Shown here: piece by piece, positions 2,705 to 20,944 of the stretch
Position numbering within the stretch: position 1 is the first letter of the stretch
Layout: the number at the start of each line of letters is the position of its first letter
IMG/VR virus record: IMGVR_UViG_3300047469_000401
Coordinates: 1 to 21,935 of that record
DNA length: 21,935 bases
Reading direction: 5' to 3' (one strand)
Origin: a virus
Position numbers and translations under genes: made by a program
The notes under the pieces: generated by a model
The model's input: the letters and a program-made list of their open reading frames with translations, nothing else
Told to the model about the DNA's origin: nothing
The model's database searches: none

Positions 2705-2748
2705 TGGAGCGGGTGAAGGGAATCGAACCCTCGTTATCAGCTTGGGAA
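2705..2748. repeat. attL: copy of the tRNA-Gly(CCC) 3' half
   Basis: All 44 bases match 20871-20914. The block contains CCA, the acceptor 3' strand, the T arm and the anticodon loop in reverse complement. Beyond the identical core, GTAATGCCAT (2761-2770) again matches the tRNA D-arm region (20921-20930), but with 6 extra bases in between. The acceptor 5' strand is absent, so this copy cannot make a tRNA. Confidence 0.9.
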
Positions 2749-2877
2749 ACTATTATTGGCGTAATGCCATCATTGGTCGGGGAATATCATTAACCCCCCT
2801 TAGCCCAGTAGAATCGTGACTTTCAGCGTGGTGGGACATTCAGTGCTCGTTCAGCTCAGGCCACAGTGGTTCTGGCG

Positions 2878-2900
2878 AACTGTCACCACAAACTGTCACC
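2878..2900 (+). promoter_or_regulatory. Probable integrase arm-type sites, left end
   Basis: AACTGTCAC occurs at 2878-2886 and 2891-2899, 13 bp apart, between attL and the integrase start. The same paired motif, in the same orientation and 12 bp apart, lies near attR (20802-20810 and 20814-20822). Paired short repeats on both flanks of the core are the known layout of tyrosine-integrase arm sites. The sequence identity is seen; the binding role is inferred. Confidence 0.6.
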
Positions 2901-2921: not shown

Positions 2922-4121
2922 ATGCTCACGGATAAGCAGATACGGGCGCTGCAGCCACGGGAAAAGCCATACGTCATGTCGGACGGGCGTAGTGCGAGGG
3001 GAGAGGGTGTATTGATACTCAAGATTCGCCCGAACGGGACAAAGGAGTTCTATTTTCAACGCTTCGTTGGCGGTAAGAAGAAACTCACAAAGCTGGGGAC
3101 ATGGCCGGCGTTGAGCCTAATCGCTGCCAGGGACAATTGCCGTGAAGAAAAGGAGTTGGTGATTTCAGCTGGTACGTTTCAGCAACTCCTGGACAATTAC
3201 ATCGCCAAGCTGCGGGCCGAGAATGCAGCGTCAGTCGAGGACGTGAAAAGCTCGTTTGAACGCTATGTGACTCGACCTTTTCCACAAATGGTCCAGCGTC
3301 CAGTCGCGATGATTGGGCCGGTCGAGATCCGGACTGTTATTGCGAGGATGATCGACAACGGCATTACCACCTACTGCAACCGCGTACGATCGCAACTGCA
3401 CGCTGCGTTCCAGTTGGGTTTGGAGCAAGAGCACAACCCGCGTAACTATCTGCAGAACAAGGTTCAGTTTGGGCTGGTGAGTAATCCGGTGGCCAGCATT
3501 CCCGTGCAGGCCGACTGGGAGCAACCGGGTAATCGGGCGTTGTCCGTTGCTGAACTCAAATCCCTATGGAATCTTTTGCCCGAACAGCTATCGCTTGTGA
3601 CGTCTGAGCTGATCAAGTTCCTGGTCGCGTCAGGTGGCCAGCGCCCCCAGCAATTGCTGGGCACCACGCGAAAGCAATATTTCGACGATCATCTGGTAAT
3701 CCGTAACCTCAAGGGTGTCGACGGTGAGCGGATCTTACACGCGGTGCCGTACAACAGACTGATGCGGAAAAGCCTGAAGACGCTGGATGAGATCAGCGAA
3801 ACGAGCGCTTATCGGTTTATGGGGAAGATGGAAGACAAGCCGCTGCACACTCAGTCGTTGTCTCGGGCGGTGACGAAGCTTTACAGCCGACATACAAAGC
3901 TGTTCGACGGGCCGTTTACCCTTCGCGATGTTCGACGGACCTGTAAAACATTGATGGGGGTTGCGGGCCTGGAGAAGGAGTTGCGCGATCGGATCCAGGG
4001 CCATGCATTTAACGATGTGTCGTCCAAGCACTACGATCGGTACGACTACTTTAAAGAGAAGCAGCGCGGTCTACAGCGTTGGTCATTGTGGTTGCAGAAG
4101 AATATTGTCGCAACGGAGTGA
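2922..4121 (+). CDS. int: Tyrosine recombinase (phage/island integrase)
   Basis: This 399-residue site-specific recombinase of the arm-binding (DUF4102) integrase type should catalyse integration and excision at tRNA-Gly(CCC). Residues 1-75 look like the arm-binding domain (LILKIRPNGTKEFYFQRF, KLGTWPALSLIAAR). Residues 85-180 are the core-binding domain. The catalytic set is readable: R241 (SGGQRPQQLL), K264 (RNLKGVDG), R335-x-x-R338 (LRDVRRT), H361 (GHAF) and nucleophile Y371 (KHYDRYDY), ten residues after H361 as usual. Position 335 is Arg where many relatives have His. Start ATG 2922 has AGGA about 10 nt upstream. The gene lies just inside attL and reads inward, on the side away from the intact tRNA. 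It appears full length. Confidence 0.93.
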   Translation: MLTDKQIRALQPREKPYVMSDGRSARGEGVLILKIRPNGTKEFYFQRFVGGKKKLTKLGTWPALSLIAARDNCREEKELVISAGTFQQLLDNYIAKLRAENAASVEDVKSSFERYVTRPFPQMVQRPVAMIGPVEIRTVIARMIDNGITTYCNRVRSQLHAAFQLGLEQEHNPRNYLQNKVQFGLVSNPVASIPVQADWEQPGNRALSVAELKSLWNLLPEQLSLVTSELIKFLVASGGQRPQQLLGTTRKQYFDDHLVIRNLKGVDGERILHAVPYNRLMRKSLKTLDEISETSAYRFMGKMEDKPLHTQSLSRAVTKLYSRHTKLFDGPFTLRDVRRTCKTLMGVAGLEKELRDRIQGHAFNDVSSKHYDRYDYFKEKQRGLQRWSLWLQKNIVATE

Positions 4122-4139
4122 GGCCGCTTACGCGGCCTC
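4120..4139. terminator. Hairpin between convergent int and alpA
   Basis: GAGGCCGC (4120-4127) and GCGGCCTC (4132-4139) form a perfect 8-bp stem with a TTAC loop. It overlaps the last bases of int and the stop codon of the convergent alpA-like gene, so it can serve both. No clear T tract follows, so termination is inferred from the hairpin and the convergent layout. Confidence 0.5.
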
Positions 4140-4331
4140 TGTGGCTCTCCATCCGGCAGGGTTATTCTGCCAGGTGATAATTGCAGACTCCCGCCACCCT
4201 ACACGGCCAGGGGATATCAGGATGGGCCGGGGGAACCGCCCATCCTTCATGGCGCGCCAAATGGTGGAGTGTGAAAGAGACGTTACTTCGATCACGTCCT
4301 TTTCACGCATGAAACGATCCAGCTTACTCAC
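4128..4331 (-). CDS. AlpA-family regulator / excisionase-like protein
   Basis: This is a 67-residue winged-helix DNA-binding protein of the AlpA family. Such proteins regulate or direct excision of P4-like elements and islands. Diagnostic features are the helix-turn-helix EVTSLSHSTIWRAMKDGRFPRPI (about residues 15-37, quoted in part), then ISPGRVGWRESAI and ITWQ. Start is GTG at 4331, preceded by AAAGGGGG; no better ATG exists. It is the last gene of the leftward operon and lies tail to tail with the integrase, sharing a hairpin with it. A role in excision and in control of the element is likely by family; the operator is not visible. Length is normal. Confidence 0.85.
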   Translation of the reverse strand: MSKLDRFMREKDVIEVTSLSHSTIWRAMKDGRFPRPILISPGRVGWRESAIITWQNNPAGWRATEAA

Positions 4332-5650: not shown

Positions 5651-7800
5651 TTACGCTTTGAAAATCCAGCATTTAACTGTTGGGCAACGGCTGGTCATCG
5701 GCGTCCTGATGGCCTGTGCTGCTCGCACTGCGCTGTCTACAGCCTTGTAATCAACGAACTTACGGCTGCGGGACTCTTTCAGCAGATCCTTCAATGTCGA
5801 GACGTCGGCCAGCTTTTGGCGGTGCTCTGCGGCCCGCTCTGCGAACTCGTTGATGTTTATGGCAATGAGGTCCGGGTTTTTGCTGTGGTTGACCAGGGGA
5901 TCTTCGTAGAGCGATTCGAGGTATTCGTAGACCTGCCAGAATTCGGCAACCGCCGCGTGGTCGGCACTGGTGGTGCTTTGGCGCTCGAGCGCCATTTCGA
6001 GGATCTGCCGCCGTGTTGCTTCGACCTGGTTATCAGTGAGCGTTACGACGAGGCGGATGGAGTCGAGCAGGCTGAGCAGCTGGGCGTGGTTTTTGATAAT
6101 TCGCTCGACGCGGATCTGGCCACGGATGGCGTTGCCACACTTCTTGCACTGACTGTCTGCAGTAAATTCGGTGCTGCAGAAGAAGCAATGGGTGTGCAGG
6201 CGGCGCAGCTTGCCTTCGTACTCGGGCATACGGTGACCCAATGCATCCATTACGGCTGACTCTTTGCTCACCGCCTGCAGCAGGAAGTGGCTGAGTGTCG
6301 GGCCATCGAGGGCGTTGAGCTTGTCCGCCGACTCACGGCTTTCTGGCGTGACTGTCGGGCGTACAAAGTGCAGCTTGCCGATCCGCGTCATAATCGCTTC
6401 GTGGGCAACAACAGCAGCGTTCTGGCTGATTGCGATTGCGCCTCGAAACGGCGGCTCATAGGTTTCGTTGCCAGCAGTCTTTACACCCTTGGTGGCCAAA
6501 GTGCCGCCGCCGTAGAAGTCTTTCAGCTCGTCCCATTCAAAGGCCTTTGCGTGGGTTTTGTTGTCTTCGCTGTGACGGTCAGCTTCCAGGAACACCACGG
6601 GCATACCCGATACCTGACCCATCAATCGAGAGCGGCCGGCTTTGGTCGATTTCATTGGGTCGAAACCCTCGTAGCCTTCACGACCGAGCAGCTTCCACAA
6701 CAGGTTGAGCAGCGTGGTTTTACCCGCACCGGCTTCACCCGTGAGCTCAAGGAAAAGGTAGGACTGATATCGAGCGCGGATCTGTTCACAAAACAGCGAC
6801 CCGAAAAAGAACACCAGGGCGACCAGGCCTTGGGTGCCAAAGCAGATCCACAACAGGCGCAGCCATTCCTCGTTGTAGTCCTTCCGCTCACGCTGCAGGC
6901 GAACAGAGACACCCTTTTGAAGCGTCTTCAGGCGCATTTTTCCGAACTCGAAATAGTCCTCGAGGTTGATCGGGTATACAGCGCCGTCTTTGACGGCTAC
7001 GTCACCAAATAGGTAGGCGCCGTGTTCCTTGCTGTAGCCGATGTAATCAATCGTCGACACTGTTTTGAGGCCATAGAGTTGGTCTTTCATGATCTTGTCC
7101 AGTTGTTGACCGCTACCGGTGTACATGGCACCAGCAGCCATCCCGAGCAGTCGTTTTTTGAATTCGCTGGCTGCAGTGAGTTGGCCACTGGTGAAGGTGT
7201 TCTTGACGCTGTCACCGTCATGCGGGAAGTCGACGCGGACGTAGTACCAGGACTCATCCGTTACCTCGTTACGCTGGTAATAGAGAGCTTGGGGATAGCA
7301 GTTGGCGATCTCGAGCACGCTCCCACACTGCTGCAACGCCTTGTCGACAACTTCTTTCTTGTTGAGCAATTGGTCGTCGTGGTCGTCGCTGTCTTCAAGG
7401 TCCTGAGTGGCACGATTGAATTTCTCCATATCCAACTTGAACCAGTACAAGCGGCTGCTAAATCCGAAGTGGAATTCCACCCGCTTGTTCCAGTCGTACA
7501 TGAGCAGGGCTTTTTCGGAGGCGGTCTCAGCGATGAGCAAGGCGCCCTGGTGACGAGCCTGCTTGATGTCTGTCGCGATCTGGTCCGATCGCTTAGCTTC
7601 GTCGTCGATGAAGGCCCAGCGCTGGTGTAGGTCGTTCCAGTCGACCTTGCGCCCGTCGCGTTGTGGGACCTGTGCGGCCTCGCACACAAACCCAAGCTCC
7701 CTGGCCATCCGGACCCAGCGGCGGGTGTAGCCATGCGCACCTGGTTCGTTATCGAGCGCCCATACCAGTTTCGGCAGCTTGGCCAAGCTCAAAGCGGCCG
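5651..7800 (-). pseudogene. Toprim primase-helicase, 5' part missing
   Basis: This is the back part of a large replication protein of islands and prophages: the end of a toprim primase domain (LVWALDNEPGAHGYT, encoded near 7725-7770), then a superfamily-3-like helicase with Walker A LTGEAGAGKTT (about 6719-6745) and Walker B MPVVFLEAD (about 6580-6606), then a zinc-binding C-x2-C-x9-C-x2-C knuckle (HCFFC...CKKC, about 6128-6192). Homology-like sequence stops around 7780-7830. Further upstream the frame stays open to 7912, but only as the antisense of a tail gene, so the nominal start there is not credible. The zinc/primase N-terminus and the first half of toprim are missing, along with the operon promoter. 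The helicase half looks intact, but without a start it is probably silent. The left end at 7800 is approximate. Confidence 0.8.
7776..7789. repeat. 14-bp perfect palindrome at the module junction
   Basis: AGCTTGGCCAAGCT lies where the 5'-truncated primase and the 5'-truncated tail gene meet head to head. It falls inside both reading frames. It may mark the recombination or deletion joint, or be coincidental coding sequence. Confidence 0.5.
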
Positions 7801-8330
7801 CACAAGCCTGGTGGAGCAAAGTCGAAAACTGGCTGCACTGGCCGTTGCTGCAAATGGACGCCGAGAACTGCCACCTGAGTGTGCTCGACCTGTTGGCCTG
7901 GCAGCGCGACATTCAGCGCTTTCACGGCGAGCCGGAAAAGCTGTACCGACGCCGGGTGAAATACGCCTTTATCAACGCGGTGGACGCGGGCAGCACCGCC
8001 GGCATGGTCCGCATTTTCGAACGCCTGGGCGTGGGGTATGTGGAGATCCAGGAGCGCCTGCCGGGTCTCGATTGGGACGTGGTTCTGCTGCACCTGTCCG
8101 ACACGCAACTGAGCGAAAACCCGGTGCTGCTGCGTGTCCTGATGCAGCAATACGGCCGCACTTGCCGGCGTTACGACTTCGTCACGATCACCCCCGTGAA
8201 ACTGAACATCGGCGTGGCCGACTTCAACGACGACCAACAGACCCTGATCGCCACGCTGGATGACAGCGCAAGCCGCCTGATCGTGATCAACGAGCTCGCA
8301 ATCCTCACCTTACTGAACGATTCATTTTAG
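7779..8330 (+). pseudogene. Phage tail protein I-like baseplate protein, start missing
   Basis: The readable part is a tail/baseplate wedge protein similar to the P2 gpI group in Pseudomonas myoviruses. Landmarks are WLHWPLLQMDAENC, LLAWQRDIQRF, EPEKLYRRRVKYAFINA and AGSTAGMVRIFERLG. In this family these lie after an N-terminal stretch longer than the few residues left here. The frame is open from 7731, but the only near-5' start is TTG at 7779, with no ribosome binding site, inside the junction palindrome; the next is ATG at 7857. So the native start was probably lost when the block was joined to the primase. The remaining 180 or so residues look intact, and the stop (8328-8330) overlaps the ribosome binding site of the tail fibre gene. 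If TTG is used it might still be made. Confidence 0.7.
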
Positions 8331-8338
8331 GAGCCCCC

Positions 8339-9952
8339 ATGGGAGCTAGCATCACCCTTGCCGGCGAGAGTCTTATTGCCCAAAAGCAAGGCGCTGGGGA
8401 GAAGCTTGAGATTGCTCGCTTCGTTCTGGCCCTTGTTCCTGGGCTTGACCCGAATGCCCCTGTCGATCGAGCAGCTGGCAAGCCGCCGTCGGAACAGATC
8501 GTCTTCACCAAAGCTTACGACCGCAAAGGCTACGTCAGCCCCAACCAGGTGATCTACAGCCTGATGGTGGGCTCTGATGTTGGTGACTGGGACTTCAACT
8601 GGATCGGCCTGGAAGCCGCCGAGGGTGAGCTGCTGGCGGTCGCGACCGTTCCGGTACAGCAGAAGCGCAAAAACATCCCGCCGCTGCAAATCGGCAACAA
8701 CGTCACCCGCAACTTTCTGGTGGAGTTCAACGGTGCGCAGGCACTGACGGGCATCACCGTCGACGCCAGTACCTGGCAGCACGATTTCACGGTGCGCCTG
8801 AACGGCATCGATCTGCGCGAGCGCCTAAGCAATCGCGACGTGTTTGGCCGTGTCTGCTACTTGGCCGACAGCCTGCAGATGGAACGCAGTTTTGGGTTGT
8901 ACCAGGTCAAAGCGGGCATTGCCTACGTGGAGGGGATCCGCGTCGAGCTGGCTGAACCTGTCCATGCGCAACTGCCGGCATTGCCCGCCATAGCCTGGCT
9001 CGACGTTGCGCTGGTCCGGGAAGGCAGTGACACGGTCGTCGCTTGGAAAGTGGTGTTCGGCGCGGCAAAGACCGACTACGTCGACAGCAACGGGACAGCC
9101 CATTACCTGGTGGAACTCGCCAGCGTGGCCGTGTCAGGTGTAATCACCGACATGCGCCAAAGTGAGCCGATCAGCAGTGCCCTGGTGAAGCACTTCGCTG
9201 CACGCAACGGGGACTACGAGAATCTGCGTGCCCGCGCTACGACCAAGGATGACGTCGACCTGGGCGAATTGCCCAATGCCAAAAGTGACGATCCGGGTAC
9301 GGACAGCAGCGAGGTTCTGGCGACCACCAAGGCACTCAACGCGCTGCGCAAGATCATTGCCGACTCCGAGGTCGGACGTATCGGCACGTTTGCCATGGCC
9401 ACACCACCGCCGGGATGGTTTCGGGCCAACGGTGCGGCGGTGTCGCGCACGGTATATGCCGCGTTGTTCGCCAAGATCGGCACCACTTACGGCGGCGGCG
9501 ACGGCGTCAATACCTTCAATCTGCCGGACCCACGCGGCAAATTTATTCGCGTCCTCGATGACGGGCGGGGCATCGATGTCGGTCGGGTATTGGGTAGCTC
9601 TCAGGCCGACGAAATTCGCAGCCACACCATCAGCGGTAGCACCGACGGTGCGGGTGGCCACACGCCTACGGCATCGACCGGGACCGCCGGTAACCACGCG
9701 CATTATGTGCGATCGGGCACATTCACACCGGATGGCGTTGATAGTTCCGGCGACATCACCGAGCCGCGGAACATCGTCAATTACGGCGAACCAGGTGCGC
9801 ACGACAAGCTGACCAGCGAAGGCGGCTCGCACACCCACCCAGTCACGGTAAACCCCGTACCTGACCACATTCACGCCGTCACCCTCAGCTATGTCGGGGG
9901 CGCAGAAACACGCCCGCAAAACATCGCCTTCCTTGCCTGCATTAAGTACTGA
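8339..9952 (+). CDS. Phage tail fibre protein with collar domain
   Basis: This 537-residue receptor-binding fibre would attach by its N-terminus to the baseplate. Residues 1-180 match the N-terminal tail-fibre domain (TLAGESLIAQKQGAG, IARFVLALVPGLD, YVSPNQVIYSLMVGSDVGDWDFNWIG, quoted as landmarks). Residues about 345-410 are a phage tail collar domain (IGTFAMATPPPGWFRANG, TYGGGDGVNTFNLPD, RGKFIRVLDDG). The end is rich in His/Gly, with HTH-type metal-binding turns (NHAHYV, GSHTHPV, DHIHAV), as in trimeric fibre tips. AGGAG sits 5 nt before ATG 8339. The chaperone gene follows after 8 nt. Full length, no break seen. Confidence 0.92.
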   Translation: MGASITLAGESLIAQKQGAGEKLEIARFVLALVPGLDPNAPVDRAAGKPPSEQIVFTKAYDRKGYVSPNQVIYSLMVGSDVGDWDFNWIGLEAAEGELLAVATVPVQQKRKNIPPLQIGNNVTRNFLVEFNGAQALTGITVDASTWQHDFTVRLNGIDLRERLSNRDVFGRVCYLADSLQMERSFGLYQVKAGIAYVEGIRVELAEPVHAQLPALPAIAWLDVALVREGSDTVVAWKVVFGAAKTDYVDSNGTAHYLVELASVAVSGVITDMRQSEPISSALVKHFAARNGDYENLRARATTKDDVDLGELPNAKSDDPGTDSSEVLATTKALNALRKIIADSEVGRIGTFAMATPPPGWFRANGAAVSRTVYAALFAKIGTTYGGGDGVNTFNLPDPRGKFIRVLDDGRGIDVGRVLGSSQADEIRSHTISGSTDGAGGHTPTASTGTAGNHAHYVRSGTFTPDGVDSSGDITEPRNIVNYGEPGAHDKLTSEGGSHTHPVTVNPVPDHIHAVTLSYVGGAETRPQNIAFLACIKY

Positions 9953-9960
9953 GACTCGCT

Positions 9961-10671
9961 ATGGAAACCAAAGTCGTCTATCAAACCGATCACCAGGGCA
10001 TCTTCATTGGTGAAACCGTGGCCGATCGCTCACCGCTGGAAGCGGATGTCTGGTTGATACCTGGCGGGTGCGTTGAGGTCGCGCCGCCGGTGGTACCGGA
10101 AAAAAAGGCAGCGTTCTGGGATGGTCACCGCTGGCAGCTGGTTGACTCCTGCCAAGGGTTGACGGCCTACAACATTGAATCCGGTGAGCCCCTGGTGATC
10201 GAGCGTGCGGGAACCCTGCCGACGGGGTACACGCTGGAAGTGCCAGGCCCAGGCCAGATCTGGAGCAACGGCCATTGGATCGATGACATCCCGGCGGTGA
10301 TTGAGCTGCGTTACGTCGCCCAACTTTCGGCGCTCAACACCGCTTGTCTGCAGGAGATCACCGGTGGGTTCTGGTCGTCGGCGTTGGGCGATCGCTTTTT
10401 CTATGAAACCCAGCTTGAGGATCAACTGAACCTGACCGGCATGATTCTGCGCGGCTTGGACGGTGGCTATGCCTGCCGCGATGAGTCGGGCGTGAAAGCC
10501 TTCCGGGATCACTCCAGCGAGCAACTGCGCCAGATCGGCGACGAGTTCACCGAGTTCAAGCAGCAGCGCCTGCGCCAGGCCAACGACCTCAAGCAGGCGT
10601 TGGCGGCGGCGCGATCGGCGTCGGACTTGGACGCGCTCAACGCCGTAGTGTGGGAGTTCGCGCCGGTATGA
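9961..10671 (+). CDS. Tail fibre assembly chaperone (DUF4376-like)
   Basis: This 236-residue protein sits directly behind the fibre gene, where tail-fibre assembly proteins normally lie. The N-terminal half has repeated short beta segments of the kind seen in gp38-like chaperones (VYQTDHQGIFIGETVAD, FWDGHRWQLV, IWSNGHWI). The C-terminal half (from about residue 115, LRYVAQLSALNTACL to the end) is helical and resembles the DUF4376 domain found in many Pseudomonas and Burkholderia fibre chaperones. It presumably helps the fibre fold and trimerise. The stop overlaps the next start (ATGA at 10668-10671), so translation is coupled. Confidence 0.8.
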   Translation: METKVVYQTDHQGIFIGETVADRSPLEADVWLIPGGCVEVAPPVVPEKKAAFWDGHRWQLVDSCQGLTAYNIESGEPLVIERAGTLPTGYTLEVPGPGQIWSNGHWIDDIPAVIELRYVAQLSALNTACLQEITGGFWSSALGDRFFYETQLEDQLNLTGMILRGLDGGYACRDESGVKAFRDHSSEQLRQIGDEFTEFKQQRLRQANDLKQALAAARSASDLDALNAVVWEFAPV

Positions 10672-11588
10672 CTTGGGCACCCATCACCATGCGCTGGCCG
10701 GAGCAATCCACCCAGTGGCTTGTCGACCTCGAGGCGGCCAAAAATCTGGCCAGCAACGAGCTCACCAGCACCGGGCAACGCCTGGAAGGTCTGGCTGATC
10801 TGGCCACGACTTCGCCGGGGCCGGTCGGTGCCGCCGCTGAAGCCGCCGTGGCCGCTGGCCGCGCAGGGTTGACCGATGCCCTGGGCGAAGTGCCGGCGTG
10901 CCTGGTGGTGACGCCATTTCAAAGTGGCGTCGGGCAAGGGCGCGGCTACCAGCGTTACCTGTCCGCGCCCAACCTGCTGCAGAAGCTGGGCGAGAAGATC
11001 GAGGACACCGGCGACGACGGTCGTCCGGCGGGCTCGCAATACGCCTTGGCCGTGATGTTCCTCGGCACGCGCTACGACAAATTCGCGGCGACCTTGTCCC
11101 GATTCAATGCCGTGTTACCGATGCCCGACCTGCAGCGCGCCGAACGCCGAGCGAAAAAACTGTTCGCCCTGGACGCCGAGAAGTGGGAGCTGCCCACGGC
11201 CGGCACACTGCCACGCTGGGGCGCGCTGCCGCTGGAACGTTGCACCGTGACCAAGGCTGCCACGCAAGCCCTGAACGGTCAGCTGTCGGCATTGGAGAGC
11301 TACGCGGACAGTTCGCCGATGGCCGATCTGGGGCGGCTGGCTGCTCGCAAAGCTAGCCAGGCGCAAGCACAGGCGCAGAAATTGGCCGACCTCAAGTCGC
11401 AGTTCGCCGGTTGCACGGCAGATGACGCCATGCGCGCGCGCCTGATCGGCCCAGGAAATGCCGCCGAGTTACGTCGCCAGCTGCTGCAGGGTGAAGCACC
11501 AGGTCACGAGTGGGGGCTGTCCGCAGGATTGCTCCTGGTCGGATCCCTGAAGGGATTGGGGTTTGTTCGGGAACTGGTGGGCCTATGA
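10668..11588 (+). CDS. Phage tail-module protein of unknown function (306 aa)
   Basis: This 306-residue protein is part of the tail operon, with ATGA overlaps on both sides. The start at ATG 10668 is preferred over GTG 10650 because of the overlap with the chaperone stop. It is alanine-rich and mostly helical: LASNELTSTGQRLEGLADLA at the start, two coiled-coil-like runs near residues 225-255 (RKASQAQAQAQKLADLK), and a hydrophobic glycine-rich end (LSAGLLLVGSLKGLGFVRELVG, about residues 284-305). The central part has a globular stretch (ACLVVTPFQSGVGQG, GYQRYLSAPNLLQKLGEKI). I recall similar proteins in Pseudomonas myovirus tail clusters without assigned function. A baseplate or tape-measure-linked role is possible but not shown. 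Confidence 0.75.
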   Translation: MTWAPITMRWPEQSTQWLVDLEAAKNLASNELTSTGQRLEGLADLATTSPGPVGAAAEAAVAAGRAGLTDALGEVPACLVVTPFQSGVGQGRGYQRYLSAPNLLQKLGEKIEDTGDDGRPAGSQYALAVMFLGTRYDKFAATLSRFNAVLPMPDLQRAERRAKKLFALDAEKWELPTAGTLPRWGALPLERCTVTKAATQALNGQLSALESYADSSPMADLGRLAARKASQAQAQAQKLADLKSQFAGCTADDAMRARLIGPGNAAELRRQLLQGEAPGHEWGLSAGLLLVGSLKGLGFVRELVGL

Positions 11589-12127
11589 CCTTATTGCTCG
11601 ATGGCGAACAGGTGCGCGGTAAAAACCTCAAGGTCACGGCCAACCTGCGAATCGAAAGCGATGACCTGTCCGGACAGACCAGCAACACCGATTCCGCTCA
11701 CAAAGGATTCAAGCCCAAGACACTGGCGGTCACGCTGCAGATCCCTTTCGTCGATAACACGTTTTTACGCAACTTGATGCGCCTGGCTGAAGCGACTGAA
11801 ACCGGTGGTCAACTCAAAACCTACCGGCTCGTCAACGACACGGCTTCAGCGTTTGGTGTTCGTCAGGTGCAGTTCTCCGATGGCGTCAGCGCCCGGGAAG
11901 ACGATTCGCTGAGGGCCTGGCTCGTTCAATTCACCTTGTCGGAAAAACTCTCCAACCCCGAACGGGTCGAGACGCGACGAGCTGGCAAGGGTGTGTCGCA
12001 GCAAGGCGCCCCAGGACAATCCGTCAGTGCACCAGGTGCAGGCGAGGCCCGCGCACCAGGTGAGGAACTGACCGGCTTCGAAGCGACGCTAAAAAAGCTG
12101 GATAACTACTTGGGCGGTGGGGCATGA
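11585..12127 (+). CDS. Baseplate complex protein
   Basis: This 180-residue protein resembles the family annotated as baseplate complex protein in Pseudomonas phages and tailocin-like clusters. Landmarks: TLLLDGEQVRGKNLKVTANLRIE, SGQTSNTDSAHKGFKPKTLAVTL, RLAEATETGGQLKTYRL, VRQVQFSDGVSAREDD and WLVQFTLSEKLSNPERVE (the first two longer runs are landmarks only). Residues 1-135 are beta-rich and compact; the last 45 are Gly/Pro/Ala-rich and probably flexible, ending in a short helix. The ATG at 11585 overlaps the upstream stop (ATGA), and the gene overlaps the next by 4 nt. It would act in the central baseplate with the hub and spike encoded downstream. Confidence 0.75.
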   Translation: MTLLLDGEQVRGKNLKVTANLRIESDDLSGQTSNTDSAHKGFKPKTLAVTLQIPFVDNTFLRNLMRLAEATETGGQLKTYRLVNDTASAFGVRQVQFSDGVSAREDDSLRAWLVQFTLSEKLSNPERVETRRAGKGVSQQGAPGQSVSAPGAGEARAPGEELTGFEATLKKLDNYLGGGA

Positions 12128-12834
12128 GCATGAAACTGCACAAGGTGCTGACCATCGGCGGTGTGGTGTATCCCCTGATCAGCGAGGACGTTCGCCTTGA
12201 ACTGCGAACCCCCGGCCGCGCAACGCTGACCATCCAGGCAGCGGCGCCGGTGAAGGGGCTGGTGACGCTCGACATTGGTTACAACGACGGCCAGTTGCAG
12301 CGCCATTTCCTCGGCTATGTCGAGCGCTGCACGTCGTCCAACGCGATCGAGCAGGTGCTGTTCTGTCGTGAGCTCGCCGCGATCCTGGCTAACCCTCTGC
12401 CGCTCAATCTGCGCCATGCGGATCTGAGCACGGTGCTGGGCGAGATCAACCAAAAAACCGGATTGAGCTTTCGAGTCCCTGCCAAGGCGTACGCCAAGGT
12501 CAAAGCCCCGTTCTTCTACAACCTGGCTGTCGGCTACCAGGCCATGGACAGCTTGGCCAAGGTGTTTGGAATCGCCGACTTCATGTGGCAGCAGCAGGGT
12601 GACGGGGAAGTATTCGTGGGCAGTTGGGCCGACAGCTTCTTCGGTGCCCGATCGCCGCTGCAGCTGCCCATCGAGTTGTTCAAGGACTACCAAAACAATC
12701 AGAGCGCCATGATCGCGGCCCTTCCCGGGTTGCGACCAGGTGCATCCATCAATCAAGGCGAGCGGATCACTCACGTGACGCTCACCGGTAACCAAATGGC
12801 GATCCGATGGAAGATGCAATCCGCCGCAGCGTAG
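12124..12834 (+). CDS. Baseplate hub protein, gpD/gp27-like
   Basis: This 236-residue protein most resembles the first part of the phage late control D / hub family, which forms the ring linking tail tube to spike. Landmarks: GGVVYPLISEDVRLELRTPG at the start (beta barrel), a second barrel (LVTLDIGYNDGQLQRHFLGYVERC), ADLSTVLGEINQKTGLSF and YQAMDSLAKVFGIADFMWQQ. It is shorter than P2 gpD (about 390 residues), so it may correspond to a compact hub variant rather than a truncated gene; the frame is clean and both ends are coupled to neighbours. The stop lies 28 nt inside the spike gene. Assignment rests on fold-like patterns and position. Confidence 0.75.
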   Translation: MSMKLHKVLTIGGVVYPLISEDVRLELRTPGRATLTIQAAAPVKGLVTLDIGYNDGQLQRHFLGYVERCTSSNAIEQVLFCRELAAILANPLPLNLRHADLSTVLGEINQKTGLSFRVPAKAYAKVKAPFFYNLAVGYQAMDSLAKVFGIADFMWQQQGDGEVFVGSWADSFFGARSPLQLPIELFKDYQNNQSAMIAALPGLRPGASINQGERITHVTLTGNQMAIRWKMQSAAA

Positions 12835-13757
12835 AGCGGCAGTTTCCCGAACTCACCGGCGGTTATCACCTGCCGCGCTTTGCCCGGGTCGTGGGTGTGG
12901 CAGACGCTCCGGCCGGCGCCGGGATCTGCGACGACTTCCGACCGCGCTTTGCGGTGGATCTCGAACTGCTGGGCTCGGACGACGAGCCTGATCCGGAGTT
13001 GCCCATGCTGGCCGGTGTGCCGCTGCCCATGCCCATGGGGGGCGACGAGATGGGGTTTTTTGCCTTCCCCGAGGAAGGTGCCCGGGTTGTCGTGTGCTTC
13101 GCCTATGGCCTGCCGAACAAGCCGTATATTCAGTCGATCCTGCCGCACGGCTTGAGTCTGCCCAGGGTGCCCAAGGGTGACCAGGTGTGGCAGCACAGTG
13201 AGACCACCCAACAACGCGCCGATGCGGACGGTAACTGGCTGCGCCAGACCGATGGCCGGATCCGTGACAAGTCGATCGAGCGAGAGGTTGAGAGCCTGGT
13301 CAACGCCGAACACCACCAGAGCAGCAAGGTGGAGGTGGACGACCATTCAACCGAGTCGGTCGGAGGGATCAAGACAATTGAGGCGATCGGCGCGCTCAAG
13401 CTGCTGTCGGGCGGATCCGCAAGTCTGGCCGCACTGGACGACCTGCACTTGGCCACCGGTCGCGATCTCAACCTGGTCGTTGCCAAAAAACTCAACAGCG
13501 CCGTAGGTGGTGACCTGCTGGAAATCATCCTGGGGCACCGCCGTAGTGTCTCGCCAAAAAATTGGATCGGTTCGGAGAGTGTGAATGTGCTCCAGGTGCT
13601 GTGTGACCTGATCGACCTGGTCACGCAGATGAACAGTGATATCGCCACCCACGTTCACGGATCGGGACCGACTCCGACCACCGCTGCGAACTTTGTTGCC
13701 CTTGCTGGTACCAGCGAACTACTCAATGGGCAGCTTAAGCCCATCACGGGAGCGTAA
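12807..13757 (+). CDS. Baseplate spike / assembly protein, gpV-like
   Basis: This 316-residue protein is the likely central spike of the contractile tail. Residues 20-115 form the OB-fold region of the gpV/gp5 family (RFARVVGVADAPAGAGICDD, MGFFAFPEEGARVVVCFAYG, NKPYIQSILP). Residues 150-235 read as a repetitive beta structure expected of the trimeric needle stem (IKTIEAIGALKLLSGGSAS, LHLATGRDLNLVVAKKLNS). A C-terminal part includes THVHGSGPTPTT, with histidines that can bind metal at the tip. Start is ATG 12807, 28 nt inside the hub gene; a weak ribosome binding site suggests coupling. P2 gpV is about 211 residues, so this version has a longer stem. The tailspike gene follows immediately. Confidence 0.82.
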   Translation: MEDAIRRSVERQFPELTGGYHLPRFARVVGVADAPAGAGICDDFRPRFAVDLELLGSDDEPDPELPMLAGVPLPMPMGGDEMGFFAFPEEGARVVVCFAYGLPNKPYIQSILPHGLSLPRVPKGDQVWQHSETTQQRADADGNWLRQTDGRIRDKSIEREVESLVNAEHHQSSKVEVDDHSTESVGGIKTIEAIGALKLLSGGSASLAALDDLHLATGRDLNLVVAKKLNSAVGGDLLEIILGHRRSVSPKNWIGSESVNVLQVLCDLIDLVTQMNSDIATHVHGSGPTPTTAANFVALAGTSELLNGQLKPITGA

Positions 13758-16139: not shown

Positions 16140-17117
16140 CTAATTTTGTCGATCCTTTTCAACCTGTGCTTCAAGCAAATCACGTACATGACTAGTTTTG
16201 ATAATCCGCCCAAAAGGAATTCTGGTACGTACGTGTGGTATTCCGTCTATGGGAATTGTCGCCTGAGCGCTTACGATACCAACTAACCGATCATTCGCTA
16301 CTACGGGGCCTCCGCTATTGCCTGGGTAGATGCTTATATCGGCCCAAAAAAAATCAAGAGCAGAATGGAGCATTGAAACTCGGCCAAAAGACGCTACTGG
16401 AAGCGAGTAATTATTTGATGACCATTGCACGTCGGCTGGTACTTTACCAATTTCTCCGAGTACGGCTGTGGCACCAGGAAAGCCAATTGCGAATAGCTCT
16501 TGACCTTCCGCATCGGGGCCGTCGGCAATTTCATCGGATGAAATTGGTACAAATCCACGTGAAATTAGATGCTCAGCGAAACCGTAACTGCGCTGGTCAA
16601 GTGAGATTATAGCCAGATCGATGGAAGGTTCAGAAAACGTGTATGGCGCGGAGAAATACGGGCCGGCACCGAGGCAGAACAATTTTTCCTGGTCATGTTG
16701 GTTTGCTAACAACTCGTCAATAGAGGGTACGCGGAAAATGATCCCGAATATTGTATTTTTAGCGTTTTCGTGAGCTGAATCTAGCAGTCCCTGACGCATG
16801 TTTTCTGGATAACCTTTGATCCATTCTGCGCCTTCATTGGTGCTCAGTTTCGCTTGATGTTCATCCCAGACAACATGGCGCGCAGTTAACAAGTAACGGC
16901 GACCTTCATGGATGATGAATAAAGCCGTGCCGTGAAATCTAATACTTCTTGTGTTCTGAGTCACTGCCTCTGTGAGTGTATCAATGTCGATCTCGCCTCT
17001 TTCATATAAGGCAATTAGTTCGTCGTTTCGCCTGTCGCGATCTGTAAAGTGCTCTTTATTCGTCGCGCACTCAAGATGAACGACTGCCTTCTTCCATTTC
17101 TCTAGCATTGGGGCCAC
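16140..17117 (-). CDS. Trypsin-like serine protease (cargo)
   Basis: This 325-residue protein carries a trypsin/chymotrypsin-fold protease domain. The triad reads clearly: H81 in LLTARHVV, D167 in SIDLAIISL and S268 in GNSGGPV. GTALFI (about 63-68) is the usual first strand, and AIGFPG and DISIYPGNSGG fit the second barrel. About 50 helical residues precede the domain (VVHLECATNKEHFTDRDRRN as a landmark). There is no signal peptide, so it should act in the cytoplasm. Start GTG 17117 has AGGAG 10 nt upstream; the internal ATG at 17108 is too far from it. It lies alone on the minus strand between the tail block and the nuclease pair. Cytoplasmic trypsin-like proteins are known effectors or sensors in several defence systems, so an anti-phage role is a reasonable guess, not shown. 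Confidence 0.88.
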   Translation of the reverse strand: MAPMLEKWKKAVVHLECATNKEHFTDRDRRNDELIALYERGEIDIDTLTEAVTQNTRSIRFHGTALFIIHEGRRYLLTARHVVWDEHQAKLSTNEGAEWIKGYPENMRQGLLDSAHENAKNTIFGIIFRVPSIDELLANQHDQEKLFCLGAGPYFSAPYTFSEPSIDLAIISLDQRSYGFAEHLISRGFVPISSDEIADGPDAEGQELFAIGFPGATAVLGEIGKVPADVQWSSNNYSLPVASFGRVSMLHSALDFFWADISIYPGNSGGPVVANDRLVGIVSAQATIPIDGIPHVRTRIPFGRIIKTSHVRDLLEAQVEKDRQN

Positions 17118-17491
17118 CGGTGGAATTCTCCTTTGGGCGTGTCAGCACATCGACATGCAGTGGAAGGGTTATGGTAGCTCATGCGATGTATTTACTTATT
17201 CTTCGATCGGATATAACCCAGACACTTGTTAACAAACGGTTTCGAGCTTTGGGAATCCTACACCCGGCGAAACTTGTCCAGACTCGCCTCCTGAATGAAG
17301 GTAGGGCTTTTTCATTTCCTACCTCCTTGCGCCTCCGGGAGGCGTACCAGGGCCATTTAATGGCTGTAGCGTTTGAGACTCACGGATAGCAAAGAATCAG
17401 CACGAAGGACGGCCAAGGCACCTGATCGCTGAATTACAGCGACGGCCAGTGAGCATCGGCTTCGATCGCCAACGAAAATTTGCGCGACAAG

Positions 17492-17529
17492 AAAAAACTG
17501 ACCGTAAAAGCTCTTCTCCCCCTCTCGCC
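17492..17529 (+). repeat. 38-nt imperfect direct repeat, left copy
   Basis: This stretch (containing CTGACCGTAAAAGC and TCCCCCTC) matches 19060-19097 at 32 of 38 positions without gaps, in the same orientation. The two copies flank the nuclease gene pair. A shorter related stretch is at about 1382-1402. Confidence 0.55.
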
Positions 17530-17544
17530 TAATTTCTAACGCTG

Positions 17545-17579
17545 AACGACAAACTCCGCACTGGGCGGGGTCTGTCGTT
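17545..17579. terminator. Long hairpin downstream of the nuclease operon
   Basis: AACGACA (17545-17551) pairs with TGTCGTT (17573-17579), and CTCCGC (17554-17559) with GCGGGG (17565-17570, one G-T pair), around a 5-nt loop. It lies 22 nt after the stop of the leftward 144-aa gene, as expected for its terminator, although a T tract on the minus strand is missing. Confidence 0.5.
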
Positions 17580-17601
17580 TGCAGGCTGGCTAGCGTTGCT
17601 G

Positions 17602-18036
17602 CTAATTCTTAGGTTCTTGCTCAATTACCGCTTTTAGTTTCTTTCCCGCTTCTGGGGTTGCGATCATCTTGCTCAATGCATTTTCCAAAGCAGTTTTGTC
17701 TTCGCAATATATTTCTGTATCTGACAAAACAATGCGGCAAGGATATCCAGATTCACTAAATTTCCACTCTGCCAACTCCTTTGGCTGAAAAGTTGATAGT
17801 GGGTTTGAAGCAGCGATGGCCCAGTATGTTTTTCTATTCATGATTTCAGATAGACTCATCGAAAATCCGGCTAAAGGCACTTGTTTTTCAATAATACTTA
17901 TTTTTAGCTTCCCTTTGGTCGCTTGCTGCAACTGTTCGCTAAGCTGCTCTATAACCGAGTCAATTTCATCCTTGTTTGCAATGGCTTCCTCTGCAGCTGA
18001 GAGTCCTTTGTTGAATGAATCAATGAAGTCAACCAT
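17602..18036 (-). CDS. Hypothetical partner of the EEP nuclease (144 aa)
   Basis: This 144-residue protein of unknown function is encoded with an 8-nt overlap to the EEP nuclease gene (ATGGTTGA at 18029-18036), so the two are almost certainly translated together. Residues 1-45 are helical and charged (SFNKGLSAAEEAIANKDEID, SVIEQLSEQLQQATKG) and may form a coiled coil. The rest is mixed: ISIIEKQVPLAGFSMSLSEI, ESGYPCRIVLSDTEIYCED and a C-terminal helix (ENALSKMIATPEAGKKL). There is no membrane segment and no catalytic motif. It could be an inhibitor, sensor or specificity subunit for the nuclease. Composition is AT-rich compared with the tail genes, which suggests separate acquisition with its partner. 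Confidence 0.8.
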   Translation of the reverse strand: MVDFIDSFNKGLSAAEEAIANKDEIDSVIEQLSEQLQQATKGKLKISIIEKQVPLAGFSMSLSEIMNRKTYWAIAASNPLSTFQPKELAEWKFSESGYPCRIVLSDTEIYCEDKTALENALSKMIATPEAGKKLKAVIEQEPKN

Positions 18037-18955
18037 TGTGCATGACCTTTTCTATTTTTCCATATACAGGAAGGTGATCAAATATGAAGTCAGGATTTTT
18101 AACCAATTCTATTAGCTCTGGAATCTCATGCACCAAATTAGACCTATGATTATACGCCCATCCGCGTGAGGCCAGAAAAGCCTGAGAATACATTAGCTGA
18201 TCAAAGGTGTGCCACTTGGTAGTCTTTCCGCCTTTGTAGTAATAGCTACCAGCGCCATGGTGATCCTCAGTCTGCTTGCACAGATGCCTCCAGAACGGAT
18301 TATAAAGCAGATATTTCTTACGGCGCACCAAATCGATGTCGCGACTTGCCATGACTTGCTCGCTAAGAGAGTCATCAAATGGTTCATCATTATAATCACC
18401 CAGCATGATTACGAATGGGCAAGCATCGTATACCTCGACAATGTCATCAAATGAATCTCTGAGGCGTACCCCCAAAGTTTGACGGTCGGCATTATTTTTT
18501 TCACACCAGAGCCTGCTGGGCCAGTGGGAAATGAATAAGTGAAAAACCGTCTCATCTATCAACGATATCAAGTCAACTCTTTTTGCGATTTTTAACGTCG
18601 ATTCTCCTTTCTTGGATATTATGTCCTTGAAGTCAAGTATCGACAACTTTCGATCATTGCAAATATAACAAACATCAAACTTCGACCTGCCTGCCTTCGT
18701 TATGCCTGAGTGAGCGCTATATCCCAATGCATTGCATGCTTGCGAAATAGCGGAGAGGTCTATGTCTGACATCTCTCCAAGAGCAATGAAGTCGGCGCCA
18801 ATCTCGGTTATTAAATTTATTACCACGTGGCAGGCAATCGCTCTCTCCTCGGGTGTCGACCTGCTGTTGCCTGAAGGGGCAAGGCTGGTGTTCCACCAAG
18901 CAAATACGAGATGATTTTCAGAAAACACCAACAGACGCTCCCCTTGAGCTTTCAT
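18029..18955 (-). CDS. EEP-superfamily (DNase I-like) nuclease/phosphatase
   Basis: This 308-residue protein has the full motif set of the endonuclease/exonuclease/phosphatase fold: N22 (AWWNTSL), E61 (ALGEMSD), H144 (SHWPSR), D187 and N189 (GDYNDEP), D252 (FDQLMYS), and D293-H294 (FDHLPV). Members cleave DNA, RNA or phosphoesters using Mg2+; the substrate here cannot be read from sequence. There is no signal peptide, so it acts inside the cell, unlike secreted DNase I-type toxins. RQTLGVRLRDSFDDI between motifs is typical of the fold. Start is ATG 18955, with only a weak upstream site. It forms a two-gene operon with the overlapping 144-aa gene. AT-rich composition and position in the cargo block suggest a mobile defence or toxin function, which is inferred. 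Confidence 0.88.
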   Translation of the reverse strand: MKAQGERLLVFSENHLVFAWWNTSLAPSGNSRSTPEERAIACHVVINLITEIGADFIALGEMSDIDLSAISQACNALGYSAHSGITKAGRSKFDVCYICNDRKLSILDFKDIISKKGESTLKIAKRVDLISLIDETVFHLFISHWPSRLWCEKNNADRQTLGVRLRDSFDDIVEVYDACPFVIMLGDYNDEPFDDSLSEQVMASRDIDLVRRKKYLLYNPFWRHLCKQTEDHHGAGSYYYKGGKTTKWHTFDQLMYSQAFLASRGWAYNHRSNLVHEIPELIELVKNPDFIFDHLPVYGKIEKVMHNG

Positions 18956-19469
18956 AGAAATCCGCGCATTTAAATTAATCCATTGAAGACGAAACTCAAA
19001 GCCTTATGCCCGTTTGGAAGCGCCGACGAGCGCTTCGATGAGAAAAGTACGCTCAGGATAAAACACTAACCGAAAAAGCACTTATCCCCCTCCCGCCGAC
19101 GGGCTTTGCGTCCGTTTTTTGTGCAAATCCCGATGTAGTGCAAACAAACCTGCAGCCCAAGCGGGGCGTGGGGCTCTGCGGGCGATCGGCAATTTCACTG
19201 CGTGCAATGTTTTGAAAGGAAATGCAGGGCGGTTGCACAGCGGCGCGGGGAGACGGTCACAGAAGGGGTAACGCTGGAGTGCCCGGATTCATTGGGCCAA
19301 AACTTTTAAAACGTGGGTTACAGGGTGTTTTCAAAAAAGTCACGTTCTTTTTGATGCGGGGAATTGGCTCTGTACGGGCAGAGTCTGAATTCGCTGCAAG
19401 CCACAGTTGGCGTGGGCTGTGGCGGGTTTGATGGATTTCATTCCGTGAAACAGCTTTTTGCCTACTTCG
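18956..19469. other. Intergenic region upstream of the EEP operon
   Basis: About 510 nt with no supported gene. It contains the right copy of the 38-nt repeat (19060-19097) and, right after it, a GACG/CGTC mini-hairpin with a T run (19099-19117) that may end transcription on the plus strand. The promoter for the leftward EEP operon should lie in 18956-19050, but I see no clear consensus. Plus-strand frames at 19222-19558 show no start signal. Confidence 0.4.
19060..19097 (+). repeat. 38-nt imperfect direct repeat, right copy
   Basis: This is the partner of 17492-17529 (32 of 38 identical, ungapped, direct orientation). Here it reads CACTAACCGAAAAAGCACTT followed by a C-rich run. The unit between the copies holds exactly the EEP nuclease and its partner. 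Confidence 0.55.
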
Positions 19470-20378
19470 TTATGGCTTCAACCTTTGCACTACATACTCT
19501 TTTGGGCCAATCGTGCAGTGCCAATGCTCTTGTGCCTCAATCCAGCGCGAAGCTATAGGGTTCGCCGCAAGCGGGTTGTAAACCATGGCTGATGGGTGTT
19601 GGACACCGAGTACTACCTGCTCCAGAAGGTCCAGCCCCAGGACTGCACTGATACACGAGTTCTGTTCGTTCAGGAACGTATTGGATGGCACCTTATTTTC
19701 GGTACCAGGTTTATCGAGGAGGGGGCGGTGTTGGTGAAACTGATCGACGATGCTCCCAGTCGATTTGTCTATCTGGATTTGAACGGGGCCGACGCTAAAC
19801 AAGACCTCAACCGCAGCAGGTTTTCCGCTTATGCCGTTGAGGCCGGTCATTGCAAACGGATTTAGCAAGCGCGTGTTGACTGCGATTACGTAAGGTTCGC
19901 CTGCTTTAACTACCCCAGACTCTAAGTACCCATGAAGCTTTTTTGTTTTCTGGGCAACAGCTGTGGTCCATCGGAGATTAATAGCTTCATGTGGGACGGT
20001 TCTCACCAGCCCAGGAGTGAACTTCGCCAAATACTCTTTCGGAATTCCCACCGGTTCAGGCGTCTGGAGTTCTATCCACGCGGATTTTCCATCTTTAATT
20101 GCTAGGAAATCAGGACCTTCATCTTTGCTTTCTAAGGCAAACCCATCACTCCAAAGCTTTTCAGCGAGCAGAAGCTCTCCCATTCGTTGCGCGTAGGTAT
20201 AGGGACGGCCGGATGTGAGCTCTTGCTCGAAAATGCGATCAGCAAGGCCTTCTTTCTGAAACCGATCGTAGAGCGCGGTCAGGAAGTCCACGGCTATGGC
20301 GGCATTCGTGGGGCGCGCTGTCCTCCAGCTATCTCCAAATTTCTCAATAACTTTTTTCCGTAGCGGATGATGTTCCAT
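19470..20378 (-). CDS. Putative PD-(D/E)xK-type nuclease (302 aa)
   Basis: I do not recognise a named family, but the first half reads as a restriction-endonuclease-like core: a helix with a conserved-looking Glu (RMGELLLAEKLW, E68), then EGPDFLAI (D90) and SAWIELQTPEP (E103-x-Q105), the PD-(D/E)xK pattern with Gln in place of the final Lys. This is followed by an LRWTTAVAQKTKKLHGYLESG helix (landmark) and EPYVIAVNTR, an arrangement seen in several nuclease families of this fold. The second half (from about 180) is unassigned. Start ATG 20378 has AAAGGA upstream. The gene is alone, leftward, close to attR, with a GGTAAT repeat cluster just upstream. The fold call is moderate; DNA cleavage is inferred. 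Confidence 0.7.
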   Translation of the reverse strand: MEHHPLRKKVIEKFGDSWRTARPTNAAIAVDFLTALYDRFQKEGLADRIFEQELTSGRPYTYAQRMGELLLAEKLWSDGFALESKDEGPDFLAIKDGKSAWIELQTPEPVGIPKEYLAKFTPGLVRTVPHEAINLRWTTAVAQKTKKLHGYLESGVVKAGEPYVIAVNTRLLNPFAMTGLNGISGKPAAVEVLFSVGPVQIQIDKSTGSIVDQFHQHRPLLDKPGTENKVPSNTFLNEQNSCISAVLGLDLLEQVVLGVQHPSAMVYNPLAANPIASRWIEAQEHWHCTIGPKEYVVQRLKP

Positions 20379-20449
20379 GGTGTCCTTTCTTGGTTATGGA
20401 CCGCAACTTTATGGCGGTTGGCCATTTTGCCGGCATTGCGCGGGAAAAA

Positions 20450-20723
20450 GGTAATTTCGGTAATGAGTAGCGGAGAGAGGGCTGGAGCGCTTGTATTGCG
20501 TGGCTTTGAGCAATTACCAGAGAAGGTAATTTAGGGTAATTGAAAAGGTAATTTTTTTGTAAGGTGCTGATTTTAAAGGGTTTTGGAAGGTCAGGATCTA
20601 ACCCTATCAAAAGGTAATCTGATTACTAGAAAATTACCCTATTATTACCTTTAACAATATGAGCTAACCCTTTGATTTAAAAGACTTCTGGAGGATCACG
20701 AAAATCCAATTACCAAAATTACC
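20450..20723. repeat. Cluster of eleven GGTAAT/ATTACC hexamers
   Basis: Forward copies start at 20450, 20459, 20525, 20535, 20547 and 20613; reverse copies at 20513, 20633, 20644, 20709 and 20718. Most extend to AAAGGTAATTT. Eleven copies of a hexamer in 274 bp is far above chance. The cluster lies between the start of the 302-aa gene and attR. Possible roles are replication iterons for the helicase, sites for AlpA or integrase, or an operator array for the adjacent gene. No protein-coding frame explains it. Confidence 0.75.
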
Positions 20724-20801
20724 TTTTTCCGATGGGTCAACATAAAACGGGGAAGGGTGTAGGGCGGGGCTGGCCAGAAGAGTTACACGCGAATTCTGAG
20801 T

Positions 20802-20823
20802 AACTGTCACTGAAACTGTCACC
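20802..20823 (+). promoter_or_regulatory. Probable integrase arm-type sites, right end
   Basis: AACTGTCAC at 20802-20810 and AACTGTCACC at 20814-20823 repeat the motif and orientation found at 2878-2900. They lie 48 bp from the tRNA-derived core. Binding is inferred from the two-sided layout. Confidence 0.6.
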
Positions 20824-20870
20824 AGTCTCGCTTGACGCTACCTCGACACCGCTGGAGGCCTTGAAAATAG

Positions 20871-20914
20871 TGGAGCGGGTGAAGGGAATCGAACCCTCGT
20901 TATCAGCTTGGGAA
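20871..20914. repeat. attR: core inside the intact tRNA gene
   Basis: This is the right copy of the 44-bp repeat. It covers the tRNA from CCA up to the anticodon loop, so integration keeps the tRNA gene whole at this side. Matching base for base with 2705-2748. Confidence 0.9.
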
Positions 20915-20944
20915 GCTGGAGTAATGCCATTATACGACACCCGC
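20871..20944 (-). tRNA. tRNA-Gly (anticodon CCC)
   Basis: The minus strand reads GCGGGTG at the 5' end (20938-20944) and CACCCGC, T, CCA at the 3' end, giving a complete 7-bp acceptor stem. The T arm holds GGTTCGATTCC. The anticodon loop is TTCCCAA with CCC at 20910-20912, flanked by a CAGC/GCTG stem. The CCA is encoded. It reads towards the element, whose core repeat covers its 3' half. It is the only intact tRNA gene in the window. Confidence 0.95.

Follow-up and report, generated by a model that had tools for sequence, protein, structure and literature searches.

A dyad array of short repeats beside attR is a probable iteron-type replication origin of P2-related temperate phages

Next to the right attachment site of a prophage, short GGTAAT repeats crowd together in both orientations, and we asked which protein reads them and for what purpose. 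The window, that is, the whole stretch of DNA analysed here (21,935 nucleotides; IMG/VR record IMGVR_UViG_3300047469_000401), contains 11 exact GGTAAT/ATTACC hexamers within 274 bp (positions 20450–20723, by letter count) near one copy of a 48-bp att repeat, just as a first-pass annotation made from the sequence alone had reported. The whole window holds 27 such hexamers, compared with 5.7 ± 2.1 (maximum 11) in shuffled sequences. As 5.7 copies are expected window-wide, about 0.07 would be expected in the 274 bp of the array, and the eleven-hexamer cluster is far above chance; the shuffling that the annotation had proposed as a check thus came out in favour of a genuine array.

The features that define the surrounding element are as follows.

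2704–2751, minus strand: attL, a 48-bp repeat that is the 3' end of tRNA-Gly(CCC)
2878–2900, plus strand: candidate integrase arm repeats, two copies of AACTGTCACC (2878 and 2891)
2922–4121, plus strand: tyrosine integrase (Arm-DNA-bind_3)
4128–4331, minus strand: AlpA-like regulator (PF05930, E 1e-15)
5651–7784, minus strand: truncated primase-helicase (phrog_1139; open reading frame called 5651–7912)
7779–13757: tail genes
7780–7784: deletion junction at which primase coding DNA joins a tail gene (blastn against G004)
19059–19331, plus strand: second conserved non-coding element, candidate cos, with a GC-rich AAAAAGCACTTATCCCCCTCCCGCCGACGGGC core and GTGCAA repeats
20802–20823, plus strand: candidate integrase arm repeats, two copies of AACTGTCAC(C) (20802 and 20814)
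20870–20917, minus strand: attR, the identical 48-bp repeat inside tRNA-Gly(CCC) at 20871–20944

The 48-bp repeat marks attL and attR and thereby gives an element of 18.2 kb, in which integrase, AlpA, small genes, truncated primase-helicase, tail genes, tail spike, cargo, array and attR follow in this order. The putative arm repeats occur in pairs at both sides of the att core and differ from the GGTAAT array. The primase-helicase matches phrog_1139 with an E value of 2e-264, but the match begins at profile position 204 and the homology of the open reading frame to its relatives begins at residue 44–45; about 220 N-terminal residues are gone through deletion. Compared by blastn with the relative G004 (34.4 kb), 16.8 kb (positions 5114–21938 of the relative) is missing at the junction, where the two matches overlap by 5 bp, and the deleted DNA encoded the N-terminal part of the primase, the head proteins and the beginning of the tail module. 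From this junction the window appears to be a defective prophage, in which the deletion seems to have spared the candidate origin, as the array is intact. Between the late genes and the array, cargo genes occupy 16140–20378 on the minus strand (a trypsin-like protease, an endonuclease/exonuclease/phosphatase-family protein (phrog_24714), a 144-aa unknown and a 302-aa protein weakly matching phrog_8571) and are possibly defence genes in a variable spot. A HicB-like antitoxin gene lies in the host flank (302–715, minus strand; PF15919, E 3e-45).

The array itself is one element of about 300 bp that combines near-dyad sites, two IHF-like linker sites and an AT-rich core, and it is laid out as follows.

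20440–20746, plus strand: whole conserved element, candidate replication origin (GGGAAAAAGGTAATTT ... CATGGGTCAACATAAAAC), a conserved block over 86 aligned arrays
20450–20464: left outer site pair, GGTAAT at 20450 and 20459, both plus strand and 9 bp apart (offsets −75 and −66 kept)
20513–20552: left inner cluster, 20513 on the minus strand and 20525, 20535 and 20547 on the plus strand (offsets −12, 0, 10 and 22 kept)
20560–20572, minus strand: IHF-like site of linker 2, TAAGGTGCTGATT, with one mismatch to the consensus
20598–20649: right inner cluster, 20613 on the plus strand and 20598, 20622, 20633 and 20644 on the minus strand (offsets 73, 88, 97, 108 and 119)
20598 and 20622, minus strand: degenerate sites of the right inner cluster, GGTTAG and AGTAAT, respectively
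20665–20677, minus strand: IHF-like site of linker 3, TAACCCTTTGATT, a perfect consensus match
20709–20723: right outer site pair, 20709 and 20718, both minus strand and 9 bp apart (offsets 184 and 193)

The layout thus has 13 positions, 11 of them exact and two degenerate (20598 and 20622), and its arms at 20443–20464 and 20709–20730 form a 22-bp inverted repeat (95%). The annotation had sorted the sites into forward and reverse groups; the positions hold, but the supposedly forward stretch 20450–20552 is not purely forward, the site at 20513 being reverse. Its description of the layout as roughly inverted was, if anything, cautious, since mirrored site starts in relatives sum to 684 or 685, which is close to a true dyad. 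A single GGTAAT array is present in the window and in each of 40 records searched, and an Rfam search of the array region returned a tRNA as the sole match.

The same element is found well beyond the window. The window array aligns without gaps over 310 bp, with all sites in register, to intergenic DNA of Citexvirus, in which the array is carried by phiCTX, Dobby, Sirocco, D14A and a further P. aeruginosa phage. A search of viral contigs and of the genomes of 84,980 species with a pattern of three GGTAAT at spacings 10 and 12 returned 132 stretches, and the pattern matches, phage records and window together gave 101 loci with at least three further sites at the expected places. The annotation had pointed to absence from close relatives as a sign against a functional array; instead, about 100 loci have the same layout. 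The conserved offsets, each followed by its orientation, are −75+, −66+, −12−, 0+, 10+, 22+, (73−), 88+, 97−, 108−, 119−, 184− and 193−. Spacing is kept within 1–2 bp while the linkers are 35–43% identical (51 arrays less than 85% alike), a comparison in which phages of one clade are not independent of each other and in which shared spacing at the three sites fixed by the search pattern is partly by construction, a bias from which arrays with other words are free. Array hosts include Pseudomonas, Stutzerimonas, Psychrobacter, Methylotenera, Ralstonia and Rhodanobacter. Wherever a record yielded an integrase, the array occupied the att end and was directed towards the integrase side. By their late genes the carriers form two classes: one has P2-like tails, and the other, to which the window belongs, has a different tail module.

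Two of the three linkers hold conserved IHF-like sites at fixed places. A site with at most one mismatch is present in linker 2 in 65% of 79 arrays compared to 7% of shuffles, and in linker 3 in 75% of 79 arrays compared to 13%; the first linker shows a weak excess (14% versus 2% in shuffles). G+C is about 25–40% across most of the region from −20 to +200 and about 55% in the flanks.

To identify the reader of the array, the annotation had suggested looking for the gene that co-occurs with it, and that gene is the phrog_1139 primase-helicase. The primase is present in 21/21 full records with an array (20/21 by automatic calling, the 21st being hidden by an antisense frame and recovered afterwards), and the large terminase in 20/21, the window having lost its terminase by deletion; no other protein family is near universal among the 21. 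In a set of 249 Pseudomonas genomes the two go together (Fisher p 2e-31): both are present in 49 and both missing from 178, while an array occurs alone in 17 and a primase alone in five. In 50/50 pairs on the same contig they are opposite in orientation. The array is 3–8 kb from the primase gene when measured across attP. Opening four of the five genomes with a primase only (G219, G234, G244 and G299) revealed in every case an array that keeps the geometry but is built on another word. By comparison, integrase arm repeats, terminase, tail type, cargo, AlpA and the 302-aa gene vary independently of the array. The 302-aa protein does not track it, and an operator of the 302-aa gene, as the annotation had also considered, is unsupported, relatives of this protein being found in none of the array-bearing records tested. 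One observation counts against an initiator as the reader, namely that some genomes have an array but no intact primase. Primase-less arrays beside recognisable phage genes look like prophage remnants, and that of G179 is an evident one, with an integrase, a primase fragment and a tail gene; the arrays of G182, G238 and G118, however, are without phage structural genes and are not accounted for in this way.

The repeat word changes together with the primase. From the geometry alone a coherent word was recovered in 54/54 arrays, with 8.3–13.5 bits of information compared to at most 5.7 in Markov surrogates, and the words are GGTAAT, AGTAAT, GCGATA, GGTTAG, TGTCAG and TGTAAG (TGTCAG in G234 and G219, TGTAAG in G299 and GGTTAG in G244). 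GGTTAG, AGTAAT and GCGATA are the words of further primase clades. Mapped onto a tree of 55 primases, the word needs 12 changes; 27 are expected, and none of 200 shuffles got down to 12. Thirty-four pairs have primases that are 75% or more identical, and in every one of them the two members have the same word. Between G029 (GGTAAT) and G299 (TGTAAG) the terminases are 97% and the primases 54% identical; the corresponding values for G014 and G234 (TGTCAG) are 95% and 54%. Compared gene by gene, G299 and G234 mostly resemble GGTAAT phages at 70–99% in their head, tail and early genes, and the primase is the sole gene replaced in both; its upstream neighbour is 84% conserved in G299 and its downstream neighbour 82% in G234. 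Two words, GGTTAG and AGTAAT, are present in the prophages of the single genome G266.

A remote primase clade extends this pattern. G187 and G212 have the same late genes with a primase about 30% identical, and a geometry scan of their late-gene ends, which served as the control, found no array there. In G187 and in G111, which has a primase of the same remote clade, an array of CCGGAACA instead lies directly downstream of the primase gene; it spans about 310 bp, and here too the outer pairs are inverted, their sites being 9 bp apart. No array was detected in the regions of G212 examined. A scan of primase divergence for the segment that marks the switch between GGTAAT and GGTTAG gave shallow dips alone (about residues 466–525 and 856–937), and we therefore claim no specificity domain.

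To gain insight into the protein, a close relative of the window primase, that of G004 (929 aa), was modelled with AlphaFold2 (mean pLDDT 83). The model consists of an N-terminal zinc-binding part, a TOPRIM primase, a Walker A helicase and a C-terminal domain. Residues 79–327 resemble DnaG (Z 14.4), and residues 322–929 resemble SCCmec Cch (5dgk; Z 18.7 for 462 aligned residues) and SaPIbov1 Rep (8tch; Z 17.9 for 431 aligned residues). phrog_1139 combines a DnaG-type primase with a helicase whose modelled fold is like that of the Rep/Cch initiators. Folded alone, the C-terminal domain gave weak winged-helix matches and no firm structural match. The profile TIGR01613, which describes the C-terminus of P4-family primases, matches weakly (E 0.003; 16.6 bits, far below the cut-off of 108.7).

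Taken with the co-occurrence, the covariation of word and primase-helicase supports the annotation's suggestion of an iteron origin or crr-like site for the element's helicase. We consider it highly likely, from comparative sequence data and the protein model, that a large family of P2-related temperate phages uses the array as an iteron-type replication origin for the initiator that the phage itself encodes, and we infer that the primase-helicase is the protein that binds and reads it.

Other binders would account for parts of these data. Arm-type or AlpA/Cox sites that build a recombination complex with IHF at attP, under integrase or excisionase control, would be placed much like this array, which lies beside attP in one orientation with the integrase on the far side, contains IHF-like sites and shares the window with AlpA and integrase genes. 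Yet the integrases are unrelated among phages with a common array, and each comes with arm repeats of its own on either side of the core (TGGGAACA in phiCTX, TTGTTACGT in Dobby and AACTGTCAC in the window); arm-type sites would not be expected, as the array is, on one core side only and in common to different integrases. Relatives of AlpA were found in only four array loci and relatives of the window integrase in only three, and the comparable array of the remote clade adjoins the primase gene, not att. A role in recombination is thus very unlikely, and the excision site proposed by the annotation is unsupported. Packaging has the terminase in its favour, a P2-type enzyme encoded in nearly all full records, together with a candidate cos 170 bp from the array in the class with P2-like tails (clear in Dobby and phiCTX; about 170 bp in Citexvirus). 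That the array is a cos or pac site read by terminase is nevertheless highly improbable, because three different words accompany terminases that are 95–97% identical, so that the array sequence does not follow the terminase as a P2-type cos would. In addition, a separate cos-like element stays unchanged while the word changes (G299, G234 and G219), at a distance from the array that varies from 0.4 to 2.1 kb. Judged by its sequence, this element (19059–19331 in the window) looks like the cos site of the window's phage class (compare GGCGAGGCGGGGAAAGCAC of P2). It is present in 43/101 array loci, left of the array and on the same strand throughout, and follows the late-gene module, not the array word, as G299, G234 and G219 have other words; cargo genes insert between it and the array. 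It emerged through conservation, a search of the window's phage class with a too strict P2-like cos motif having returned nothing.

A small protein of the replication module, linked to the primase, might bind the array as an origin or copy-control site, and small genes beside the primase are indeed partly co-inherited. However, the downstream neighbour in G234 and the upstream neighbour in G299 are 82% and 84% like those of GGTAAT phages, respectively, while the words differ, and no small gene family is near universal or swapped consistently; we judge such a partner unlikely. We give almost no credence to a host nucleoid or regulatory protein. The occurrence of the array in many Pseudomonas and its AT-rich DNA with IHF-like sites would suit one, but the word follows the primase tree, and a single host binder is excluded because two prophages of one genome, G266, have different words.

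With the array as the origin of the phage's own initiator, the following sequence of events can be proposed. In the prophage, the candidate origin and the primase-helicase gene lie at opposite ends, and excision and circularisation bring them to about 3–8 kb apart across attP. Initiator subunits would bind the 12–13 short sites through their C-terminal domain while IHF bends two of the three linkers, and this bending would fold the four site clusters into one compact complex. Six forward and six reverse sites would then assemble two initiator hexamers, oppositely facing, on the AT-rich core, which the hexamers would melt and unwind both ways as the primase half lays primers. The computation shows a rigid and widespread array, its linkage to one primase-helicase with which its word covaries, and an initiator-like fold; direct binding, origin activity, IHF bending and the two opposed hexamers are deduced. 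As the window initiator is without its N-terminus, its origin would presumably work only with an initiator of the same specificity supplied from elsewhere. A more specific reading, which we put forward tentatively as a serious possibility, is that the origin is locked in its geometry: the IHF-folded dyad of 6+6 sites would serve as the platform on which a self-loading primase-helicase assembles as two opposed hexamers, and the complex of protein and DNA would be so tightly constrained in its architecture that a change of initiator can bring in a new word but leaves all spacings as they were. If so, these phages would carry a family of mutually incompatible, structurally identical origins.

The arrangement can be compared with several known systems. 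P2 replicates by means of its A protein, with the origin inside gene A; the head modules here are P2-related, but the relatives carry a primase-initiator helicase and an array. P4 is a P2-related element whose alpha protein combines primase, helicase and origin-binding domains and reads short repeats in both orientations. Together with ori and crr, alpha appears functionally similar to the primase-helicase and its array, although the repeat is different, the sequence match to the P4-family primase C-terminus is weak and the array has no second copy of the kind given by ori plus crr. A fused initiating helicase and primase is likewise described for P4 (PMC7145576). Iteron plasmid origins are similar in having an AT-rich stretch, IHF-like sites and short repeats that their cognate Rep recognises; here, by contrast, sites in both orientations keep fixed spacing over 274 bp and the initiator would itself be a primase-helicase. 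Among described systems, the SaPI Rep origin comes closest. There the C-terminal domain of Rep contacts several short iterons, with Rep apparently forming two hexamers, and the origin lies directly downstream of the initiator gene (PMC7581432). SaPI Rep and SCCmec Cch and Cch2 have the same initiator helicase fold as modelled for residues 322–929 here. In contrast to SaPIs, helicase and TOPRIM primase are here joined in one protein, four clusters of sites make up a rigid dyad that includes two conserved IHF-like sites, and the carriers are phages of Proteobacteria rather than satellites of Staphylococcus. The origin is moreover remote from the initiator gene and beside attP, which counts against membership of the SaPI group; the SaPI position of the array directly downstream of the gene is matched only in the remote clade of G187 and G111. 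The array is thus set apart from the SaPI system by where it lies and from the P4 system by how many cis sites there are.

The annotation knew of no described element that uses the motif. This stands for function, as no description of a phiCTX/Citexvirus origin or of a GGTAAT array was found in the open-access literature, but not for the motif, which is present in sequenced phages such as phiCTX. Our data predict the site of replication initiation for many prophages of Pseudomonas and other Proteobacteria, a large group that is mostly uncharacterised and includes the old model phage phiCTX. They also provide many natural initiator-origin pairs, with at least six words on one fixed scaffold, in which initiator-origin specificity and the loading of two opposed helicases become directly testable, and they may help to predict which phage can replicate which prophages or defective remnants.

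Some arrays occur in other settings. Solitary GGTAAT arrays at L279:3812, L280:3971 and L185:1951 have no phage structural genes within 40 kb, and those of L279 and L280 have cargo-like genes to the left; they could be remnants or small elements that borrow a helper's initiator. Pairs of arrays in the same orientation, 3.6–5.8 kb apart, are present in G288 (C1:4850180/4853805), G172 (C2:110867/114542) and G085 (C1:1592207/1598040) and are possibly tandem elements or array-bounded satellites. Finally, about 1.6 kb downstream of the primase gene of G187 (L213), and separate from its CCGGAACA array, eleven perfect copies of CGTTACAG are arranged head to tail.
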